Of a stretch of 32,924 nucleotides of DNA, positions 2,019 to 14,869 are shown piece by piece. The position numbers were made by a program, and so were the translations under genes. Under the pieces are notes generated by a model. The model saw only the letters and a list, made by a program, of their open reading frames with translations, had not been told where the DNA came from and made no database searches. Origin of the DNA: a virus; the IMG/VR virus record IMGVR_UViG_3300045120_000298, positions 1 through 32,924 of that record; one strand, 5' to 3'. How positions within the stretch are numbered: the first letter of the stretch is position 1; each line of letters starts with the position of its first letter.

Positions 2019-2362
2019 CCGGTCACTCTGGTACTCTCTCGTTTCGATGGGGTCGCTCGCCTGTAAACCGGCTGCAAGCGATCCGCATCGCCGGTGATCA
2101 AGGAGAGTGGTGGCGCACCGCGCTTCTGCTCTCCGATGCCTTTGACTGCCACGACTGGATCGTCATCGGCGGCTCGAAATCGGCCTACTGTCGCCAAATC
2201 CCGATGAACCGACAGCACGCCTATCGACTGGTCACGCTTGCCGGCGCCGGCCTCGCCCAGCCCGGCGTCACGATTCGACAGGCGCTCCTCGAGCTTGGAA
2301 GTTGCGAGCGTGAACGACACCTCTCGAAGCGGGTTTGTCAGGTGACTCCCTTGGCCTCATAA
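2015..2362 (+). CDS. Putative HTH-like protein (115 aa), last gene of left plus-strand unit
   Basis: The chosen start is the TTG at 2015, which overlaps the upstream stop (TTGA) and has a GAGGGGTGG purine-rich stretch just before it. A longer in-frame start would overlap the previous gene by more than 150 bases. Residues about 45-85 (DWIVIGGSKSAYCRQIPMNR, then QHAYRLVTLAGAGLAQPG) look like a helical DNA-binding or ParB-like specificity module: a conserved Trp, then AYRLV in a likely recognition helix. This is inference. The stop codon TAA lies inside the anticodon-like loop of the tRNA-Met-like structure at 2327-2397, so gene and RNA structure overlap. Confidence 0.5.
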   Translation: MTGHSGTLSFRWGRSPVNRLQAIRIAGDQGEWWRTALLLSDAFDCHDWIVIGGSKSAYCRQIPMNRQHAYRLVTLAGAGLAQPGVTIRQALLELGSCERERHLSKRVCQVTPLAS

Positions 2363-2397
2363 GCCAGGGGTGCGGTTCGAGTCCGCGCCCGCTCCTC
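2327..2397 (+). tRNA. tRNA-Met(CAU)-like structure with minimal D arm
   Basis: Acceptor strands 2328-2333 and 2388-2393 pair (AGCGGG/CCCGCT). A T arm at 2371-2387 has a perfect TTCGAGT loop. An arm at 2348-2370 has the seven-base loop CTCATAA, giving anticodon CAU. Odd points: the D arm is only GTC-AGGT-GAC, there are just three bases between the anticodon stem and T arm and these can extend the anticodon stem to 8 bp, the first acceptor pair is A-C, and no CCA is encoded (CTCA follows). It overlaps the end of the upstream coding sequence, whose TAA is in the loop. It could be an unusual phage tRNA, a decayed tRNA, or an attachment-site copy of a tRNA 3' half. Confidence 0.4.
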
Positions 2398-3511: not shown

Positions 3512-3575
3512 CCGGCAGGATTGCCGGAGGCGGTGAGCCGGAATCGAACCGGCTCGGAAGTCACCAGACCACCGC
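3512..3575 (-). ncRNA. tRNA-like minihelix plus hairpin, copy A
   Basis: Read on the minus strand, GCGGT at 3575-3571 pairs with ACCGC at 3534-3530. The arm GAGCCGG/CCGGCTC carries a TTCGATT loop (3548-3542). Together they make 12 bp, the length of a tRNA acceptor plus T stem. The D and anticodon arms are replaced by 15 bases. After the stem comes CTCC, then the hairpin CCGGCAATCCTGCCGG (3527-3512). It fills the gap between the gene ending at 3582 and the gene starting at 3496. Confidence 0.55.
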
Positions 3576-3581
3576 GGCCGA

Positions 3582-4049
3582 TCACCAGCTGGACTGGTAG
3601 TAGTAATCCCCCTTCAAGTCGGGATCGGCTTCCAGGATCTCGGTCAGGATCGCCACGGTGCTTTGGATGTCCTCCATGTACCACTGGTCGATCTCGGTTG
3701 AGCCGAAGAAGAACCCGGACTGCGGCGGCAGGTGCTCGCCTCCCACGGCCACGGGGTCACGGGCTTCCAGCACCCGCTGGCACGTCCCTAGAAGCTCTCG
3801 CAGCTGCTCGGCGGACACCCACGCCTCTTGGCATTCGTCGCGGCCGTCCTGGACGTTTTGAACGAACCAGGCATGAATCGCGTTGGCCTTGCGCCAGTAG
3901 CCCATTTCCTCGGTGATCTCGCACACCTTGGAAGTGTCGATGCGGGTGGGCTTGCCGTCATCGCGGGTGACTGCGATCTCCCACCGGAACTCCCGGTGGT
4001 CCCAGTTCTTCACGTAGGTCTTTCGGTGCAAGTACATATCGAGTCCCAC
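3582..4049 (-). CDS. Conserved phage hypothetical protein (155 aa)
   Basis: The N-terminus MGLDMYLHRKTYVKNW and the motifs YWRKANAIHAWFV and GFFFGSTEIDQWYMEDI match a protein type I recall from many phages and some bacteria, always without known function. The protein is rich in Trp, Tyr and charged residues, has one Cys-containing loop (QDGRDECQEAW), and shows no membrane segment. The start ATG at 4049 is supported by the conserved MGLDMYL beginning and by an AAAGGAG ribosome binding site. It sits alone between tRNA-like elements B and A. Confidence 0.75.
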   Translation of the reverse strand: MGLDMYLHRKTYVKNWDHREFRWEIAVTRDDGKPTRIDTSKVCEITEEMGYWRKANAIHAWFVQNVQDGRDECQEAWVSAEQLRELLGTCQRVLEARDPVAVGGEHLPPQSGFFFGSTEIDQWYMEDIQSTVAILTEILEADPDLKGDYYYQSSW

Positions 4050-4069
4050 GGTTCACTCCTTTTCCATGT

Positions 4070-4129
4070 CCGGCGGTATTGCCGGAGGGGGCGCCCGGGA
4101 CTCGAACCCGGGCGAGATCCAATCGCCCC
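4070..4129 (-). ncRNA. tRNA-like minihelix plus hairpin, copy B
   Basis: On the minus strand GGGGC (4129-4125) pairs with GCCCC (4092-4088). The arm GCCCGGG/CCCGGGC holds a TTCGAGT loop. The total is 12 bp with an 11-base linker in place of the D and anticodon arms. CTCC follows, then the hairpin CCGGCAATACCGCCGG (4085-4070). It begins 7 bases after the stop of the RHH gene and precedes the gene starting at 4049. Confidence 0.55.
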
Positions 4130-4136
4130 GTCACCC

Positions 4137-4292
4137 TCACCGCGTGATCGATTGTGGGTCACTGGCGTACATGATCAGGACGAAGCGCACGAGTTCACCG
4201 ATCGTCATTTCTCGTGCTTCAGCGATCCGCGCGAGATCATCTTTGAGCTTAGGCCCGACGCGGATGTTGATCGTCTCGGTCTTGGTTGCCAT
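4137..4292 (-). CDS. Ribbon-helix-helix (CopG/Arc-type) regulator (51 aa)
   Basis: It was found by reading the minus strand and is too short for most ORF cut-offs. The protein MATKTETINIRVGPKLKDDL continues as an RHH fold: a beta strand (TETINIRV), helix 1 (PKLKDDLARIAEAR), a turn, and helix 2 (TIGELVRFVLIMYAS). RHH proteins bind DNA as dimers through the strand. The ribosome binding site GGAGGCG lies in the end of the upstream gene. It is the third gene of a unit that starts beside a 13-bp palindrome (4658-4670), so it may autoregulate that unit. Confidence 0.8.
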   Translation of the reverse strand: MATKTETINIRVGPKLKDDLARIAEAREMTIGELVRFVLIMYASDPQSITR

Positions 4293-4295
4293 CGG

Positions 4296-4502
4296 TCACG
4301 CCTCCAATGTGCCGTCAGCGATGTCGTCGCGTCGTGTTTGCGTGCCATCGGCGTATCCATCGCTGTACAGACCGTTCTCGCGGCTCGTGTCGAACGGTGT
4401 AGCAGCGGTGACTTCGGGACGCTTCGCGCGGTTGGCGTAGCCGTCTGCGAATCCAAGGTTGTAGCTGCGCTGGGATTCCTGCCATTCAGTGTCAGTCATC
4501 AT
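4296..4502 (-). CDS. Small hypothetical protein with internal repeat (68 aa)
   Basis: Starting at the first of two tandem ATGs (4502) makes an ATGA overlap with the preceding 44-aa gene. A longer frame to 4604 would overlap that gene fully, so it is less likely. The protein shows a duplicated aromatic-Gly-Asp motif, NLGFADGYANR near residue 15 and GLYSDGYADGTQ near residue 44. This looks like two copies of a short helix-turn unit. Function unknown. Confidence 0.6.
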   Translation of the reverse strand: MMTDTEWQESQRSYNLGFADGYANRAKRPEVTAATPFDTSRENGLYSDGYADGTQTRRDDIADGTLEA

Positions 4503-4633
4503 GGCTTGATTACTCGGGTTAGACCTTGGGGTGCTTTGAGGGTGGGCGTGGTGGTCGACGTATGGAGAGGGCATCGTTTTAGATGGCGCTTGTATGCGCC
4601 ACATTCAGGACACCATCCGGTTGGGCTGCTCAT
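4499..4633 (-). CDS. Tiny zinc-knuckle-like protein (44 aa)
   Basis: The ATG at 4633 follows a very good GAGGAGG ribosome binding site five bases away. The stop overlaps the next start (ATGA). The N-terminal half, WCPECGAYKRHLKRCPLH, has CxxC plus a later Cys and His, enough for one zinc knuckle. The C-terminal half is Thr/Pro-rich and probably disordered. It is the first gene after the palindrome at 4658-4670. The strong translation signal supports a real gene despite its size. Confidence 0.6.
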   Translation of the reverse strand: MSSPTGWCPECGAYKRHLKRCPLHTSTTTPTLKAPQGLTRVIKP

Positions 4634-4657
4634 GATCCTCCTCACGTTGGTAAACCC

Positions 4658-4670
4658 ATTGTATCACAAT
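4658..4670 (-). promoter_or_regulatory. Palindromic operator overlapping an extended -10 box
   Basis: ATTGT-GAT-ACAAT is a perfect 5+5 inverted repeat in an otherwise GC-rich region. On the minus strand it contains TGATACAAT, an extended -10 (TGnTACAAT), placed to start transcription near 4651, upstream of the gene at 4633. No -35 is seen. The three-gene unit it would drive ends with an RHH repressor-like protein. Confidence 0.45.
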
Positions 4671-4677
4671 CAGTCCA

Positions 4678-4734
4678 CGGCGGTATTGCCGGAGGGGGCG
4701 GCCGGGACTCGAACCCGGCTAGACCATTCGCCCC
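4678..4734 (-). ncRNA. tRNA-like minihelix plus hairpin, copy C
   Basis: On the minus strand GGGGCG (4734-4729) pairs with CGCCCC (4700-4695), and GCCGGG/CCCGGC carries a TTCGAGT loop. That is 6+6 bp with only a 9-base linker. CTCC follows, then a shortened hairpin with the same AATACC loop (4691-4678). It starts 5 bases after the stop of the gene ending at 4740. Confidence 0.55.
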
Positions 4735-4739
4735 GTCGC

Positions 4740-4901
4740 TCACCGCTCGCGGCTGTCGATCACCTCCCCGGTGTCGGCGTTGACCAGGCGCCAGTAGGCA
4801 CACCGCTCACGGGCGAGCTTGCGGGCTTCTTCTGGCGTGGTGAACGTCGGCCCCAGCACTCGCCAATCTCCCTCGGCGGTCTGGTATTCGATCTCGATCA
4901 T
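4740..4901 (-). CDS. Small hypothetical protein (53 aa)
   Basis: The ATG at 4901 makes an ATGA overlap with the gene upstream. The sequence reads as a compact beta-beta-alpha-beta fold: IEIEYQTAEGDWRVLGPTF, a helix TPEEARKLARERC, then YWRLVNADTGEVID. This pattern is common in small actinophage proteins that I know only as hypotheticals. No active-site motif is visible. Confidence 0.65.
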   Translation of the reverse strand: MIEIEYQTAEGDWRVLGPTFTTPEEARKLARERCAYWRLVNADTGEVIDSRER

Positions 4902-5134
4902 CGCTCGCCCTCCGTCTCGGCTCGGTGGTGTCCCTGCGCTCGTTCGAGTATGTCGTCCCACGACAAGCCGTTGTGATCGCAGAAGTGATGTAGGTCGCAG
5001 ATCAGATCGGCCACCGCGTACTCCGGTTCGAGTTGTCCGGCCTCGGTGTAGTCGATCGCGTCGGGGCTTCCCTCGATCGCCGCCGCGCCCCAAGCGGCTC
5101 GCTGCTCGTTGGTGGGCTCTGAGGGATCTCGCAT
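4898..5134 (-). CDS. Hypothetical acidic protein (78 aa)
   Basis: The ATG at 5134 follows the string GGAGGCGTGACCG, identical to the leader of the RHH gene. The protein is acidic and helical, with VADLICDLHHFCDHNGLSWD near the centre. This resembles small phage proteins with a Cys/His cluster (C, HH, C, H) that might bind a metal. The C-terminus is charged (RAQGHHRAETEGER). Function unknown. Confidence 0.65.
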   Translation of the reverse strand: MRDPSEPTNEQRAAWGAAAIEGSPDAIDYTEAGQLEPEYAVADLICDLHHFCDHNGLSWDDILERAQGHHRAETEGER

Positions 5135-5137
5135 CGG

Positions 5138-5599
5138 TCACGCCTCCTGGTTGTGGGTAAACCCTGCCATCGCCATCGCGACGGCCTCTAGCGTCCGCTC
5201 AAGCTCGTCACGATCCACCTCGGCCACCTCGGCCCGGTTGATTGCGACCTGTTCGCGCTCCTCGGCGTGGCGTAGCGCCGCCTCGGCCTCGTTGCGCTTG
5301 ACGTGCGCTCGTTGGTACATGCCATCCACCACGTCGAGATCGTGCCGCAATCCCTCGATCTCGGTCATGGCGTGGATGTGAACGAACCCCTTAAGACGAT
5401 CGATCTCGGCCACGTGGCGGTCGATCATTCCCTGCGATTCTTCCAGCTGCGACATCCGCACGTCTAGCTCGCGCTCAAGCTCGGCCCGCGCGGCCTCTAG
5501 CTCGTGGGCGTGCTGGAACCATGAAACCGCAGAATCCTGCCACCGCTTGCGGCTTGCAAGGATGATGGCGGGGTCAGTGTCAATGTCGAAATCGCTCAT
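5138..5599 (-). CDS. Long coiled-coil protein (153 aa)
   Basis: Nearly the whole protein after residue 30 is predicted coiled coil: HAHELEAARAELERELDVRM, then segments rich in Glu, Arg and Leu through residue 145, with few helix breakers. The likely role is structural or scaffolding, perhaps dimerising with another early protein; no partner is evident. The ATG at 5599 overlaps the upstream stop (ATGA). The upstream extension in the same frame is rejected because it overlaps the zinc-ribbon gene. Confidence 0.7.
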   Translation of the reverse strand: MSDFDIDTDPAIILASRKRWQDSAVSWFQHAHELEAARAELERELDVRMSQLEESQGMIDRHVAEIDRLKGFVHIHAMTEIEGLRHDLDVVDGMYQRAHVKRNEAEAALRHAEEREQVAINRAEVAEVDRDELERTLEAVAMAMAGFTHNQEA

Positions 5600-5787
5600 G
5601 CTGTCACTCCTTCGGTCGTGGTGGCACCGGCGCACGGCCGGCACTGGACGCGCTCACGAGTTTTGCCGGCCGCGAAGCCGAACTCGCCACACTTGCTGCA
5701 GGTGTAGAACCCCGCGTAACCCTTCGCCTTGGCAATCTCGAACCGGGCGATGCGGTCGCGCTTGCGGGCGGCTTGGCGGGCGGTCAT
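5596..5787 (-). CDS. Zinc-ribbon protein (63 aa)
   Basis: It has two clean Cys pairs, CSKC at residues 30-33 and CRPC at 49-52, with a basic helical N-terminus (TARQAARKRDRIARFEIAKA). This is a classic short zinc ribbon, likely to bind nucleic acid or a protein partner. The ATG at 5787 overlaps the stop of the membrane peptide gene, and its stop overlaps the coiled-coil gene, so all three are probably translated together. Confidence 0.7.
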   Translation of the reverse strand: MTARQAARKRDRIARFEIAKAKGYAGFYTCSKCGEFGFAAGKTRERVQCRPCAGATTTEGVTA

Positions 5788-5885
5788 CGCGGCGCCGCCT
5801 CGGCCAGGATCAGGACAAGCCCGAACCCAACCCAGAAGCCGCCGACCACGAGGCCGATCGCGACTAGAAGCTTGGAAGTAGTCAC
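5784..5885 (-). CDS. 33-aa single-span membrane peptide
   Basis: GTG at 5885 is preceded by GGAG at a good distance. The product starts MTTSKLL and continues with about 23 hydrophobic residues (VAIGLVVGGFWVGFGLVLIL), then ends AEAAPR. The positive N-terminus suggests it stays inside. A Gly-rich helix with GxxxG-like spacing could oligomerise. Possible roles are superinfection exclusion or membrane stress, but there is no direct evidence. It overlaps the next gene (ATGA) and follows element D. Confidence 0.55.
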   Translation of the reverse strand: MTTSKLLVAIGLVVGGFWVGFGLVLILAEAAPR

Positions 5886-5904
5886 ATTCACTCCGATCGT
5901 TCAC

Positions 5905-5964
5905 CCGGCAGGATTGCCGGAGGGGGCGGGCGGGGATCGAACCCACCCGGGAACCATTCGCCCC
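5905..5964 (-). ncRNA. tRNA-like minihelix plus hairpin, copy D
   Basis: On the minus strand GGGGC(G) (5964-5959) pairs with (C)GCCCC (5928-5923). The arm GGGTGGG/CCCGCCC (one G-U pair) carries a TTCGATC loop. This again gives about 12 bp, with a linker of about 11 bases. CTCC is followed by the hairpin CCGGCAATCCTGCCGG (5920-5905). It starts 4 bases after the stop of the gene ending at 5969. Confidence 0.55.
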
Positions 5965-5968
5965 GGTC

Positions 5969-6226
5969 CTAGTCGCTCATTCCTCCTCGCACGATTTCCG
6001 CCCACGCACGCACGCACGCACGGCGGGCGATTTCCAGGTCATGCTCTAGTGATTCGAGCTTCTCGTAATCCGATCGCTTGCGCTGTAGTTGGCGCCACTG
6101 GACGCCGGAGTCTCGGTCGATGCTGCGACCGAGATCCCGTCGCCGCCGCTTGCAGGCATCGGCCAGTAGCACGATTTCATCCAAGCTCAAGCGGACTTCG
6201 CGGGTTGGGATTCGCTCGGAAGTCAT
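5969..6226 (-). CDS. Hypothetical helical protein (85 aa)
   Basis: The ATG at 6226 overlaps the previous stop (ATGA). The protein is helical and highly charged: LSLDEIVLLADACKRRRRDL, a basic middle (VQWRQLQRKRSDYEKLE), and a C-terminal helix ending RACVRAWAEIVRGGMSD. Near the 3' end it contains a five-unit CGTG tetranucleotide tract (6003-6022); slippage there would change the last residues and could fuse past the stop. Function unknown. Confidence 0.65.
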   Translation of the reverse strand: MTSERIPTREVRLSLDEIVLLADACKRRRRDLGRSIDRDSGVQWRQLQRKRSDYEKLESLEHDLEIARRACVRAWAEIVRGGMSD

Positions 6227-6519
6227 GCCAGCACCAGCGCCACAATCACAGCCTCGAAATCATCGGCGAACCGAACCGCGACGCCGGAGAAGTAGGAGTC
6301 CGATCGGAACCCGTCCCACCGCTCGCGGGTAACGCTCGCGGGATTGTCCCACCGCTCAAACTCGGCCAGATCGTAGACCTCCCCGCGATACCGGAAGCCC
6401 GCGAAATCGGCCTCGCGATCGGCGGTGATGTAGTCAAGCTCGCGCCGGTCCTGATCGGTGAGTTCCCACCACGACAACACTTCCCGCTCGTGGTGGTTGG
6501 TGATAATCGTCAAGCTCAT
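6223..6519 (-). CDS. Hypothetical protein (98 aa)
   Basis: The ATG at 6519 follows a strong GGAGGG ribosome binding site; longer upstream starts would cross element F. The protein begins MSLTIITNHHEREVLSWWEL and includes ELDYITADREADFAGFRYRG and a C-terminal hydrophobic strand (DDFEAVIVALVLA). It resembles small phage or plasmid proteins found near antirestriction genes, often annotated only as hypothetical. It is immediately downstream of the ArdC-like gene, separated by element F. Confidence 0.65.
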   Translation of the reverse strand: MSLTIITNHHEREVLSWWELTDQDRRELDYITADREADFAGFRYRGEVYDLAEFERWDNPASVTRERWDGFRSDSYFSGVAVRFADDFEAVIVALVLA

Positions 6520-6542
6520 GTCATACCCTCCTAGATCGCCCG

Positions 6543-6614
6543 CTCGCGGGATTGCGAGTGCGGGGGAGGGGGAAGTGCGGTCGCGAGCCGCCGCCGCCGT
6601 GAGCGGGCTTCCCC
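6543..6614 (-). ncRNA. tRNA-like minihelix plus hairpin, diverged copy F
   Basis: On the minus strand GGGGAAG (6614-6608) pairs perfectly with CTTCCCC (6575-6569), a full 7-bp acceptor-like stem. The T-like arm is GCGG/CCGC with a seven-base CTCGCGA loop, so the T-loop consensus is lost. CTCC follows, as in the other copies, then the hairpin CTCGCAATCCCGCGAG (6558-6543), which keeps the AATCCC loop. The linker is 15 bases. The changed stem with kept pairing argues for selected structure. Confidence 0.45.
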
Positions 6615-6620
6615 GTGGTG

Positions 6621-7622
6621 CTACCGGCAGACCTCGCAGCCGCCGCCATCGACAATCCCGTCCCAACCGCACGCGCTACAACCGCCGTGGGATTCGGCCT
6701 CATCGATCATTCGGCTTGAGAGTTTCGCGATCCGTTCCAGCAACCGCCGAACCCGCTTGACATCGCCAGACCATCCCGCGATGTACGGGGCGGAATAGCC
6801 GGTAGTGTCGAACCCAAAATGAGCCGCCACCACGAACGCCGCACCTTCCGCGATCGCTTCGCAATCCTGGCGATCGTCGCCCGCGTCGCGATGTCCGGCG
6901 ATGCCGTGGGCGATCTCATGGGTGAGAGTCTTAAAACGAGCGGCGGCCGGTAGATCGGCGTTGACAACGATCTCCGGCGGATCGGTGAGCGTGCACCAAC
7001 CGGCCGGGCGACCGTCCGAACCGTTTCCGAGTTTCGGGTCCTGCCGAATGTCGATTTTGCAACCGAACGCTTCCCCCGTCGCCCGCATGCGATCCACGAG
7101 CTTCGCGGCCTCCGGCGAATCATCGGTGAGGGGGACTACTGCCGGAGGGCTCATCGGCGGTCCTTCCGTGTCGCGATCCGAGAATACGCTCACGGTTCGG
7201 AAGCCGATCACGCGGGATTCCTTCTCGCCCGGGTGGCGGTCGCTGTCAACCTTCGCGACGATCGGCGCCAAAATCCGGACTGCCATCGATCCGGGCTTCT
7301 CATCCGGGCGCCGCTTCCGAACCGGTCGCCCGAGTTCTTTCCACCGCTCGTAACCGGCAACCATTCGCGCGTCGGGGGCTTGAATCGCGATTAGGAGCCG
7401 GTTCCCCCAACTGTACGAGTGCATCGCGGCCGAAATCCGGAGGTACTCGCGGAAGCTTGAATCGTTGGCGATGATGTCGGCCACCGCGGCGTCAAGCTTC
7501 GCGAGATATTCATCGGCTCGCGCCTTGGAAGCTTCGCGAGATTCGGCCTTGGAAGCTCGCTTCTCGTCCGGCGTGAGATCCTTCCACCGCTTCGCCGGTC
7601 CGGTCATTGTGCCAGTAGCCAT
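6621..7622 (-). CDS. ArdC-like antirestriction protein with zinc-metallopeptidase motif (333 aa)
   Basis: Residues about 40-120 match the ArdC N-terminal ssDNA-binding domain (FREYLRISAAMHSYSWGNRL, with RMVAGYERWKELGRPV). The C-terminal half has the zinc-peptidase signature LTHEIAHGI, with H235, E236 and H239, and a third ligand likely at E255 or E259 (CEAIAEGAAFVV). ArdC proteins protect incoming DNA from restriction, and their protease-like domain is conserved. The last 20 residues add two Cys pairs (CSAC, CEVC), a possible zinc ribbon that I do not remember as standard in ArdC. The ATG at 7622 comes just after the upstream stop. The early position suits counter-defence. Confidence 0.88.
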   Translation of the reverse strand: MATGTMTGPAKRWKDLTPDEKRASKAESREASKARADEYLAKLDAAVADIIANDSSFREYLRISAAMHSYSWGNRLLIAIQAPDARMVAGYERWKELGRPVRKRRPDEKPGSMAVRILAPIVAKVDSDRHPGEKESRVIGFRTVSVFSDRDTEGPPMSPPAVVPLTDDSPEAAKLVDRMRATGEAFGCKIDIRQDPKLGNGSDGRPAGWCTLTDPPEIVVNADLPAAARFKTLTHEIAHGIAGHRDAGDDRQDCEAIAEGAAFVVAAHFGFDTTGYSAPYIAGWSGDVKRVRRLLERIAKLSSRMIDEAESHGGCSACGWDGIVDGGGCEVCR

Positions 7623-7624
7623 GT

Positions 7625-7819
7625 TTAGTACCCCGTTTCTCGGTCGAATGCGGCCGATTCGGCGAATCCCTGCAGGCGTCCAACCTTCCGGGCAAGCTCG
7701 CCCGCATCGGTCGCTGCGAGGATCGCGATCGCTTCTCGTTGGTCGCCGTCGGAAACGTTGACCTTGGAACCATCCTGGTAGATGCGAGCGACAATCGATA
7801 GTGCGTCTAGCGTGGTCAC
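7625..7819 (-). CDS. Hypothetical protein (64 aa)
   Basis: The start is GTG at 7819, three bases after the stop of the first gene in the unit. The protein MTTLDALSIVARIYQDGSKV continues with VSDGDQREAIAILAATDAGE and a helical C-terminus. It looks like a small globular alpha/beta protein. It directly precedes the ArdC-like gene with a two-base gap, so the two are almost certainly co-translated and may act together. Family not recognised. Confidence 0.6.
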   Translation of the reverse strand: MTTLDALSIVARIYQDGSKVNVSDGDQREAIAILAATDAGELARKVGRLQGFAESAAFDRETGY

Positions 7820-7822
7820 GGT

Positions 7823-7972
7823 CTAGACCTCCTCGCGATCGCCGCGGCAGTAGTAGAACCCTGCGCCGTGGTCGCATCGGTGATGTTCGGTCTGCCATCG
7901 GGCGAACCGCCGAACTAGTCGAAACACTGCCATCGGGAACCGTCCTTCCGTCTCGTGGTTGGTTACGCTCAT
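7823..7972 (-). CDS. First gene of minus-strand unit, small Cys/His protein (49 aa), probably leaderless
   Basis: The protein MSVTNHETEGRFPMAVFRLV continues to HHRCDHGAGFYYCRGDREEV. The Cys/His cluster (H, H, C, H, C) could bind one zinc. The ATG at 7972 has no ribosome binding site but lies exactly seven bases after a TATACT -10 box, so the mRNA would begin at the start codon. An alternative ATG at 7933 follows GGAAGG and would give 36 residues. Function unknown. Confidence 0.5.
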   Translation of the reverse strand: MSVTNHETEGRFPMAVFRLVRRFARWQTEHHRCDHGAGFYYCRGDREEV

Positions 7973-7978
7973 GGGTGG

Positions 7979-8008
7979 AGTATAAACACAATCGTCGCGA
8001 GCTTGCAA
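7979..8008 (-). promoter_or_regulatory. Promoter of the minus-strand unit
   Basis: On the minus strand TTGCAA (8008-8003) and TATACT (7984-7979) are separated by 18 bases. Transcription would start at about 7972, the A of the first ATG. The -10 matches 5 of 6 consensus positions, the -35 matches 4 of 6. It is the only clear two-box promoter that I see before this unit. Confidence 0.6.
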
Positions 8009-8508
8009 CCAACGTGGTGACAAGTCCCCCTTAAGAGGGGTCGAAATAGCAGCCGAACAACCCTCGGATCGCCCCCCCTGCAGACCGGACAGAAACAGCC
8101 GGTGAAAGCGGGCGATTTGAATCTAGAGGCCGGATTGCGGGCGATAGCCAACCACGCCACGGGGCGACCCTAGGGGTAGGGGGGGACTACAGGGGGGGTC
8201 TGTAAATCGTGGTTGGGTGATCGATGGGTTGGGGGTGAGCTTGCACCCATCTAGAGGGGTCATGAGTGCGTGCACGTTGGGGACAACACCTCAAACTCAC
8301 CCATTGGTATAGACCACACGCAATCCGATGCCCAGGCAGCCTAGGTGTGCCAAGGGGTACGGCGGGCCTTTCGCGCACCCCCACCGGCCGGCGGTTGGCG
8401 CCGTAGGTTGGGTATTCATCCCCACTCCAACACCACCCTGAGAATCCGAGTTACCTCGAGCCGAACGTCACACCCAGCCACCACCCCTGCCCGGAATCAG
8501 GAGGACGC
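8009..8508. other. Non-coding divergent region
   Basis: About 500 bases with no convincing gene separate the divergent minus and plus units. It holds G-rich tracts (8173-8198), an inverted repeat ATGGGT...ACCCAT with an inner GGGTG/CACCC stem near 8223-8250, two copies of AGAGGGGTC (about 8033 and 8252), a TGGTATAGA extended -10-like string near 8306, palindromes CCGGCCGG and GGCGCC near 8386-8402, and at its end the AGGAGG of the gene at 8509. Being just upstream of the terminase genes, it is a reasonable place for a cos/pac site, an origin, or the late promoter. None of these can be proven by eye. Confidence 0.5.
8173..8198 (+). other. G-quadruplex-forming tract
   Basis: The string contains GGGG, a two-base loop, seven G, a six-base loop ACTACA and seven G, satisfying the standard four-run G3+ N1-7 pattern on the plus strand. 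More G runs flank it (8161-8164 and after 8210). It lies in the divergent non-coding region. Confidence 0.55.
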
Positions 8509-12931: not shown

Positions 12932-14869
12932 TTGGCAACCCCCGTCTACTCGAACATCCCCTCATATGGCGGCGATCCCCGCCAGAAGGGATCTCGCATC
13001 GTCACCGCGGGATCGAAGATCGACGTGGACGTGCCCCGCTGGATGGCAAACGAGCTTGACCCGTGGGAGACAGCCCTTCGGCCGCTCAACGATGAGTGGG
13101 ACAAGCTGTGGGAGAAGTGGTGGATCAAGCCGCTGCAAAAGACCGACACCCCGTTTCTCTCGAGGGTGCAGTCAAGCTACGGCCACCGCCTGGTGGAGAC
13201 GCTGGTGCCCACCATCCTCGGTGAAAACCCGAAGATCACCTACGTCAACTCCCAGTTTGAGGAGGACGACCTGCCGGCCGCCCTGAACACCGCGCTGGCA
13301 AAGGCCCAGCTGAAGCGGATGCGCTTCGACCACCACGCCCGCGACTACATCCGCCAGGGTGTGATCAAGGGCTACACCATCGGCAAGGTCGGCTGGATTC
13401 AGGAGAAGGCCCACCTCAAGGTCGATCAGACCGAGACGCACCGCCACGCCGGCGAGGACTTCCAGATCACGCTGGCCCAGCCGCAGATGGTCACGATCCG
13501 AAACGAGCCGTTCTTCGAGGTTGTGAACACGTGGGACTTCGTGTGGCCGCTTTGGGCGGAGTCGATCGAGCAGTGCGAGTGTGTGTGGCAGCGCCGCTGG
13601 GTGACGATGGAATACCTCCAGCAGATGCAGAAGCTGAAGGTCTACCAGAACGTTGACAAGGTGACTCCGATCGACTCGGGCAAGTTCCAGGAGTCCAGGA
13701 GTGGACAGTTTTCGGCGCAGAACCTGACGCTGCAGGGGCTGGATCAGTCGATCTCCGGCGACGACGCCTACGCCTACGGCATGGTGGAACTGTGGGAGCG
13801 GTGGGAGGACAACCGCTTGAGTGTGATCGCCAACCGCGAGATTTGCGTCAGAGACGATCCCAACCCCTTCAACCACAAGCGAAAGCCGTTCACCGATTGG
13901 GCGCCCATCCCCGCCCCCTTCCAGATGCACGGCATCGGCACCATGCGAGTGGTGCATGACGCCAACGAGCAGCTGGGAACGATGCGCCGCCAGATGCTGG
14001 ACGCGGTCACCTTCACGATCAACCCGATGTGGAAGGTGCCGGAGGGATTCGACCGCACCAAGATCATCTTCAAGCCCGGCGGCCTGGTCGAAATCGCGCC
14101 CGACATCGAGGACGTGGAGCCGTTCAACATCCCCCAGGTGGACATCGCCGGGATGCTTCAGGCCGACCAGATGCTGAAACAGGAAATGGAAGGCACCTCC
14201 GGCATCCAGCCGCTCTTTGGTGGCGCCTTCCAGCCCGGCGGGTCGCGCACCGCCACCGGTTGGCAGACGATCCAGAATGCCGCCGGCCTTCGCCCCACCG
14301 AAATGATCAAGCAGTTCGCCGATCGAACGATGGCGCCGTTCGCCAAGATGCTTTTGGAAATGAACGCCCAGTTCCAAGACGACGACATCATCCTGAATAT
14401 CAGCGATGACCCCGACGCGATGGAAGCCTGGCAGTCGTTTGTGAAGGTGGAAAACCCGCCCAAGGTGATCGAGGTGGAAGCCGTCATGCTGCGCCCCCGG
14501 GGCGAGCTTGAGCCGATCGCCGAGGTGGGAAACGACAAAGCCTCGTCAGACCAGGAGAAGCAGCAGAAGGCAACCGGCTTCATGGCCGCCATCACCCCCG
14601 TGATCGGGTCGCAGAACAACCCCCTGGACATGGCCGCGGTCGTGAAGTGGCTGGCCGAGCAGTACGACGTGCCCCACAAGGACGCTCAGGCGATGCTGCA
14701 GCAGCCGCCGGTGCAGGCCGCCCAGGCCGCCGCCGCAGCCGTCCCCAGTGGCGCCGGCGCTTCCGGGCCCGGCGGTGAGAACCTGCCAACAGGCGTACCC
14801 CCGGGTGGGGCTGGAATCTCCGGCCCCACCCAACCCCCTAGCCCGCCCGGCTTGGGCGCCGCGCAGTGA
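12932..14869 (+). CDS. Portal protein (645 aa)
   Basis: The start is TTG 12932, one base after the previous stop region. The protein has the size and layout of podovirus portal proteins of the P22/phiEco32 kind: N-terminal crown/wing (DPWETALRPLNDEWDKLWEK), a middle with EPFFEVVNTWDFVWPLWAES, the long stem/clip region (HDANEQLGTMRRQMLDAVTF, GTSGIQPLFGGAFQPGGSRT), and a flexible Ala/Pro/Gly tail after residue about 575. It forms the dodecameric ring for DNA entry and tail attachment. Gene order (terminase before, scaffold and capsid after) supports it. The exact family is inferred, not searched. Confidence 0.85.
   Translation: MATPVYSNIPSYGGDPRQKGSRIVTAGSKIDVDVPRWMANELDPWETALRPLNDEWDKLWEKWWIKPLQKTDTPFLSRVQSSYGHRLVETLVPTILGENPKITYVNSQFEEDDLPAALNTALAKAQLKRMRFDHHARDYIRQGVIKGYTIGKVGWIQEKAHLKVDQTETHRHAGEDFQITLAQPQMVTIRNEPFFEVVNTWDFVWPLWAESIEQCECVWQRRWVTMEYLQQMQKLKVYQNVDKVTPIDSGKFQESRSGQFSAQNLTLQGLDQSISGDDAYAYGMVELWERWEDNRLSVIANREICVRDDPNPFNHKRKPFTDWAPIPAPFQMHGIGTMRVVHDANEQLGTMRRQMLDAVTFTINPMWKVPEGFDRTKIIFKPGGLVEIAPDIEDVEPFNIPQVDIAGMLQADQMLKQEMEGTSGIQPLFGGAFQPGGSRTATGWQTIQNAAGLRPTEMIKQFADRTMAPFAKMLLEMNAQFQDDDIILNISDDPDAMEAWQSFVKVENPPKVIEVEAVMLRPRGELEPIAEVGNDKASSDQEKQQKATGFMAAITPVIGSQNNPLDMAAVVKWLAEQYDVPHKDAQAMLQQPPVQAAQAAAAAVPSGAGASGPGGENLPTGVPPGGAGISGPTQPPSPPGLGAAQ

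Follow-up and report, generated by a model that had tools for sequence, protein, structure and literature searches.

Anticodon-less, tRNA-elbow-like elements between the genes of viral operons: candidate RNase P sites in polycistronic mRNA

Why would a viral operon carry tRNA-like hairpins in one intergenic gap after another? The question is raised by the IMG/VR virus record IMGVR_UViG_3300045120_000298, analysed over its 32,924 bases (the window). A minus-strand unit runs there from about 8.0 to 2.8 kilobases (kb). Its genes mostly overlap or abut and leave only five clear gaps, and these are exactly the five sites at which a preliminary description of the sequence had placed look-alikes of the tRNA top half, i.e. 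an acceptor stem stacked on a T-arm. We propose that the elements are a cis-acting RNA family, built of a tRNA elbow and an acceptor stem, through which host RNase P divides the early operon mRNA. We judge this account somewhat likelier to be right than wrong.

Anatomy and covariation of the elements

Copies B to E combine a 12-base-pair (bp) acceptor plus T-arm helix with a TTCGA T-loop and a short linker containing GG. Each starts 4-7 nucleotides (nt) past a stop codon and ends ahead of a ribosome-binding site, which bears out the placement first described. A second hairpin, whose loop reads AATNCN, comes after each of them. These copies were located with a structural descriptor (T-loop plus stacked helices), and the second hairpins were read from sequence and fold.

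6569-6614, minus strand: copy A, diverged; outer 7-bp helix GGGGAAG/CTTCCCC, inner 4-bp stem and 7-nt loop CTCGCGA, no T-loop consensus
6543-6558, minus strand: second hairpin of copy A, CTCGC-AATCCC-GCGAG
5923-5964, minus strand: copy B, GGGGCG-aatggttcccg-GGTGGG-TTCGATC-CCCGCC-CGCCCC (acceptor 6 bp, linker 11 nt, T-stem 6 bp, loop TTCGATC)
5905-5920, minus strand: second hairpin of copy B, CCGGCAATCCTGCCGG
4695-4734, minus strand: copy C, GGGGCG-aatggtcta-GCCGGG-TTCGAGT-CCCGGC-CGCCCC (acceptor 6 bp, linker 9 nt, T-stem 6 bp, loop TTCGAGT)
4678-4691, minus strand: second hairpin of copy C, CGGC-AATACC-GCCG
4088-4129, minus strand: copy D, GGGGCG-attggatctcg-CCCGGG-TTCGAGT-CCCGGG-CGCCCC (acceptor 6 bp, linker 11 nt, T-stem 6 bp, loop TTCGAGT)
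4069-4086, minus strand: second hairpin of copy D, TCCGGC-AATACC-GCCGGA
3530-3575, minus strand: copy E, GCGGT-ggtctggtgacttcc-GAGCCGG-TTCGATT-CCGGCTC-ACCGC (acceptor 5 bp, GCGGT/ACCGC; linker 15 nt; T-stem 7 bp; loop TTCGATT)
3512-3527, minus strand: second hairpin of copy E, CCGGCAATCCTGCCGG

In the window the descriptor returned exactly copies B to E, against 0.06 matches per dinucleotide-shuffled window. Among the five top-half copies initially claimed, B to E are thus genuine, whereas copy A retains no more than its outer helix and second hairpin and gave no match with covariance model R1. The linker, first given as 9-15 bases throughout, measures 9-11 nt in B to D and 15 nt in E. Model R1 scored copies B (42.3 bits, E-value 3.5e-7) and D (52.8 bits, 1.9e-9), both of which are part of its alignment, and also copy C (42.1 bits, 4e-7), though C is absent from the model; copy E scored weakly (14.7 bits, 0.34) because of its long linker. 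The window copies did not fold significantly better than expected for DNA so rich in GC (z +0.06 to -1.18), so folding energy was dropped as evidence. The case therefore rests on covariation in relatives, not on stability.

As the stems of descriptor matches pair by construction, an unbiased test was made with two patterns that specify the linker and the T-loop alone and leave the acceptor free. The acceptor was fully paired in 36/39 and 53/57 of their unique matches, versus 9.9% and 6.3% when the 3' arms were re-dealt randomly, and the matches held 21 and 41 distinct acceptor combinations. Likewise, the outer T-stem was paired in 90% and 93% of matches, versus 13% and 7% after re-dealing. The covariation score reached 0.832 in alignment A1 (0.177 shuffled, 0/500) and 0.839 in alignment A2 (0.166 shuffled), about five times the shuffled mean, and it collapsed on sliding by one column (at most 0.176 for A1). 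Changes on both sides were seen in 12 of 13 and 10 of 12 pairs of the two alignments. The preliminary description had proposed selection on the RNA structure of a tRNA top half and had staked this on covariation in homologues; such covariation is clearly present and strongly supports both the selection and the top-half identity.

Mutual information disclosed two further pairs that had played no part in selection, each 90.9% paired in A1: linker position 2 with 8 (C-G/G-C/A-T) and linker position 9 with T-loop position 60 (A-T/G-C/C-G). The linker GG, which corresponds to G18-G19 in tRNA, is invariant in A1 (class 1). The two extra pairs and the invariant GG therefore argue for a D-loop-like turn docked on the T-loop, i.e. 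the tRNA elbow. Copies B to E have the TTCRANN loop and the G53:C61 pair of a T-arm, and this innermost G-C pair is invariant in A1. On these sequence grounds, the comparison indicates that the elements are a tRNA elbow without an anticodon arm.

The elements are not tRNA cloverleaves, because a linker of only 9-15 nt is too short for a D arm plus an anticodon arm. ARAGORN called no tRNA at any window element, nor at the elements in stretches L033-L035. Rfam 15 at gathering threshold gave no family in the window or in five Streptomyces phage stretches. The best sub-threshold match of several elements was mascRNA-menRNA (RF01684; 23.5 and 22.1 bits versus a gathering threshold of 42.5), a tRNA-like RNA cut by RNase P, and it aligned across the entire model. 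The SAS/ESAS of cluster K mycobacteriophages have been described as sequence repeats at the ribosome-binding site by start codons, not tRNA-like folds.

Some tRNA calls touch elements or resemble them. In Streptomyces phage Sitrop, an annotated tRNA-Arg and an ARAGORN call (L036, 6907-6989) overlap an element and the end of a coding sequence; an ARAGORN call in Amela (L037, 4209-4291) does likewise. Both are probably false tRNAs. A match in Vibrio phage PG07 was rejected, being a real tRNA-Glu. A tRNA-like sequence at about 4065-4147 of L011, with D-arm-like and T-arm-like parts (CCGGAG...CTCCGG), received no ARAGORN call.

Distribution and placement in phage operons

A blastn search with copy D led to unannotated gaps of Streptomyces phages, and in Lannister, RedBear and Alsaber the element stands in most gaps of the early region. 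One such copy reads GGGTG-ACCGGCAGACA-CCAGGG-TTCGAGT-CCCTGG-CACCC-ACTG; others carry the acceptors GCGCG/CGCGC, GGGAG/CTCCC, GCGTG/CACGC and GCCTG/CAGGC. A search with this example found 874 places in 143 phage records, namely 113 of Streptomyces, 22 of Mycobacterium, 4 of Gordonia, 3 of Streptococcus (sequence match alone) and 1 of Arthrobacter. The element stands in most early-operon gaps of Streptomyces (Likavirus, Camvirus), Mycobacterium (Papyrusvirus, Konstantinevirus, Predator) and Gordonia phages. In the stretches read, Rope held 13 copies (12 kb), Konstantine 8, Predator 7, ObLaDi 6 and MakoManhole 3, while Sheen, Dagobah, the saliva phage D_HF2_7 and the archaeal virus HHTV-2 (a halovirus) held one each. 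All 7 copies of Lannister (50.0 of 50.2 kb) lie inside its leftward early operon at 43.8-48.9 kb. At an E-value of 1e-5, chromosomes matched in 3 of 148 sampled genomes (class of Nocardia), under strict filters with which weak matches can be lost; the element therefore looks like a phage feature and not a common host gene.

Two classes recur, one with 5+6 bp and an 11-nt linker ACTGGCAGACA, the other with 6+6 bp and a 10-nt linker ATGGTCGNAG. Copies B to D of the window have the 6+6 helix with AATGGTTC-type linkers, and their nearest kin are L168 and L171. The loop itself can vary: a Lannister gap (L033, 7971-8053) shows the same kind of acceptor and the ACTG flank with TGCAAGG in place of TTCGAGT, so a T-loop-based search overlooks variants.

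The placement is equally regular. Of 55 elements in seven annotated stretches, 52 occupy annotated gaps, at a median of 10.5 nt past the stop codon and 45 nt ahead of the next start codon; the elements begin mostly 4-19 nt past the stop. Among the three exceptions, one falls within an annotated open reading frame of Amela and the other two outside the range of the entered genes. Six one-direction stretches contain no opposite-strand element, and in ObLaDi, which has elements on both strands, they match the direction of its genes. A long open reading frame ends 2-20 nt upstream of 32/39 and 41/57 pattern matches, compared with 3-6 and 4-11 at shifted controls. A second hairpin with a stem of at least 6 follows 100% of the elements in Konstantine (11% shuffled) and 85% in Rope (16% shuffled). 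The intergenic array originally seen in one operon is thus strongly supported by its placement.

Variant forms were met as well. A first IMG/VR scan with the T-loop plus CTCCGGCAAT gave 28 matches, most of which look like chance; only the pair L013 (854-914, minus strand) and L030 (5196-5256, plus strand) was window-like. These two share the T-arm and the CTCCGGCAAT hairpin and have a 30-nt linker with the D-arm-like GGTCAGCTC, a version that we read from its sequence as an intermediate form. The lower-GC contigs L109, L123, L135 and L143, whose host is probably not actinobacterial, contain GAACTG...CAGTTC-CTC-like versions immediately upstream of ATG; their leaders are A-rich and lack a clear Shine-Dalgarno sequence.

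The putative reader of the elements

RNase P cuts acceptor/T-arm model hairpins, binds the T-loop and uses a distance of about 12 bp as a ruler; its further contacts are stacking on G+1:C72 and pairing with R73-C74-C75 (PMC11143913). The elements present the corresponding features, i.e. a stacked acceptor plus T-stem of 12 bp in the window and 11-12 bp in relatives, a T-loop and G+1:C72. Across 137 elements anchored on the linker, G+1 was found in 131 (96%), R73 in 130 (95%) and C74 in 134 (98%), while C75 was rare (6, or 4%). The same trend was seen in the pattern matches, with R73-C74 in 37/39 and 43/57 and C75 in 3/39 and 4/57. A conserved T-loop, GG, 11-12 bp, G+1, R73 and C74 without C75 is the combination to be expected for an RNase P target not destined to become a CCA-ended tRNA. 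An apparent complete absence of T from N-1 in class 1 was discarded as partly an artefact of the helix limits of the descriptor (5/137 in the recount anchored on the linker). Because the elements have the features that RNase P recognises, in their geometry, in G+1:C72, in the T-loop/GG elbow and, for the actinophage elements, in R73-C74, cutting by RNase P is the best explanation, and the early suggestion that the elements cut the polycistronic mRNA as its substrates is plausible.

Beyond the observed structure, covariation, placement and distribution, we infer that RNase P is the reader, that it cuts and that mRNA stability is affected, as follows. The element would be transcribed inside a polycistronic early mRNA, between one stop codon and the next ribosome-binding site. 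It would fold into a helix of 11-12 bp (acceptor 5-6, T-stem 6) with the T-loop TTCRANN, a 9-15 nt GG linker replacing the D-loop and docking on the T-loop. Host RNase P would bind this elbow, measure the helix and cut just 5' of the first G. The operon RNA would thereby be split into gene-sized messages, the upstream one ending a few nt past its stop codon. At its 5' end the downstream message would be stably paired, through the mini-tRNA and often the second hairpin as well, and its 5'-end-dependent decay would be slowed.

Several points weigh against this proposal. No CCA stands 3' of the elements, so the pairing of a 3' RCCA with the P15 loop is lacking, and E. coli RNase P has been reported to require the 3' CCA on small T-stem/acceptor substrates (PMC5723415). 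Hence the suggestion that the elements also serve the CCA enzyme finds no support, with C75 in just 6/137. The helix of the main class has 11 bp, one below the tRNA ruler. Copies B to E of the window, together with their kin L168, L171 and HHTV-2, read C73-T74-C75-C76 instead of R73-C74; for these, either the RCC contact goes unused by the RNase P of the host or a different elbow reader acts on them. Other readers of the tRNA elbow include RNase Z, the L1 stalk of the ribosome and modification enzymes (PMC4810234), and conservation of the elbow is also compatible with RNase Z, the L1 stalk, TruB or EF-Tu. The identity of the reader is thus the least certain step of the proposal.

The rarity of C75 and the lack of a CCA would also suit full excision, in which RNase P cuts the 5' side and RNase Z cuts after N73, freeing a mini-tRNA of about 41 nt that might serve as a decoy or small RNA. 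RNase Z recognises the elbow and processes precursors that lack CCA (PMC4810234), but it is not known to need the 98% conserved C74, and we regard full excision as unlikely. The position of the elements, mostly 4-19 nt past a stop and some 45 nt ahead of the following start codon, would also suit a translation device without any cut, an elbow mimic that touches the ribosome (L1 stalk, E site) and promotes reinitiation or recycling at the gene that follows. The L1 stalk does grip the tRNA elbow (PMC4810234). However, such a device leaves the conserved G+1, R73 and C74 unexplained, a long distance separates the element from the start codon and overlapping phage genes (ATGA) need none, so we consider this rather unlikely. 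The second hairpin that often follows (Konstantine 100%, Rope 85%) would be in line with passive stabilisation of the mRNA, the compact fold acting between genes as a barrier to exonucleases or RNase E/J and no specific enzyme taking part. A plain hairpin would suffice for that, and the T-loop, the GG and the two extra pairs would not persist across unrelated phages, which makes this reading quite improbable. Although the elements are repeated, intergenic and palindromic, it is hardly credible that they are intrinsic terminators or DNA-level repeats (recombination boundaries or protein-binding sites), since no terminator-like site (GC hairpin plus T-run) coincides with any of them, and they follow the gene strand and keep pairing while the sequence changes, as selection at the RNA level would have it.

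The proposed RNase P sites have partial counterparts. The model substrates AT1/pATSer share the acceptor helix stacked on a T-arm, the missing anticodon arm and cutting at the 5' end of the helix (PMC11143913), but they are synthetic and their 3' end pairs with the GGU motif of the enzyme, whereas the phage elements are natural, have a conserved D-loop-like linker, lack CCA and lie inside mRNAs. Further mRNA and phage RNA targets of RNase P are the his operon mRNA, T4 gene 32 and the phage C4 and M3 RNAs (PMC11143913). Plant-virus 3' tRNA-like structures, e.g. of turnip yellow mosaic virus (TYMV), are likewise viral elbow mimics and RNase P substrates (PMC4810234), but unlike the phage elements they are 3'-terminal, pseudoknotted and single per RNA. 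Mitochondria have tRNA-like units between genes that are cut by tRNA-processing enzymes, as predicted here; their punctuation uses functional tRNAs, whereas the phage units lack the anticodon arm and cannot decode. mascRNA and MEN beta (RF01684) are tRNA-like folds within long transcripts, but they form eukaryotic long noncoding RNA 3' ends and no intergenic array. To our knowledge, the RNase P sites in the his operon, T4 gene 32, C4 and M3 RNAs are single, with no shared recurring element and no multi-copy family.

No earlier description of phage tRNA-like, T-arm, RNase P or punctuation elements was found in the open-access literature (subscription papers and preprints were outside the search). 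The preliminary claim that no such phage array is known therefore stands for this literature and for Rfam 15, but the array is not peculiar to the window phage. While tRNA mimicry and RNase P processing of mRNA were already known, a natural mini-tRNA array in phage operons appears to be new; if the proposal is true, it would be the first natural tRNA-punctuation system made of mini-tRNAs that we know of. The wider claim, a viral RNA class from actinobacteriophages to a haloarchaeal virus in which anticodon-less elbows let RNase P cut at gene borders and set decay and translation gene by gene, we would put at an even chance. If true, an RNA family has been left unannotated or mis-annotated as tRNA in many sequenced and lab-grown phages (e.g. 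Lannister, Konstantine, Predator), and gene-by-gene setting of expression in phages with long polycistronic early transcripts would be explained. It would also supply natural minimal RNase P substrates for a question so far addressed chiefly through synthetic hairpins, and carry tRNA punctuation beyond organelles into viruses. So small a natural tRNA elbow would also be of interest for how tRNA evolved from its acceptor/T-arm half.

Surroundings of the array in the window

Further features of the window are:

7979-8008, minus strand: promoter-like site TTGCAA-18-TATACT from a consensus scan, at the head of the unit holding all five gaps
6621-8012, minus strand: first gene of this unit, for an ArdC-like anti-restriction protein with a metallopeptidase region, both just below Pfam cut-offs
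12932-14869, plus strand: SU10-type portal protein (PF23899)
2328-2395, plus strand: tRNA-Met-like gene of 68 nt (anticodon CAT)

About one promoter-like site such as that at 8008-7979 is expected by chance in this region under the consensus scan. The window phage is taxonomically unplaced because tblastn with its portal gave only distant matches to phage records, of about 22% identity; judged from this portal, the phage is far from known phages. A nucleotide search of the first 8 kb of the window against phages gave zero matches, and a plasmid search gave short, weak matches only. The 3' half of the tRNA-Met-like gene resembles the elements (GGTTCGAGTCC, flank CTC), and this gene is a possible source or relative of them.

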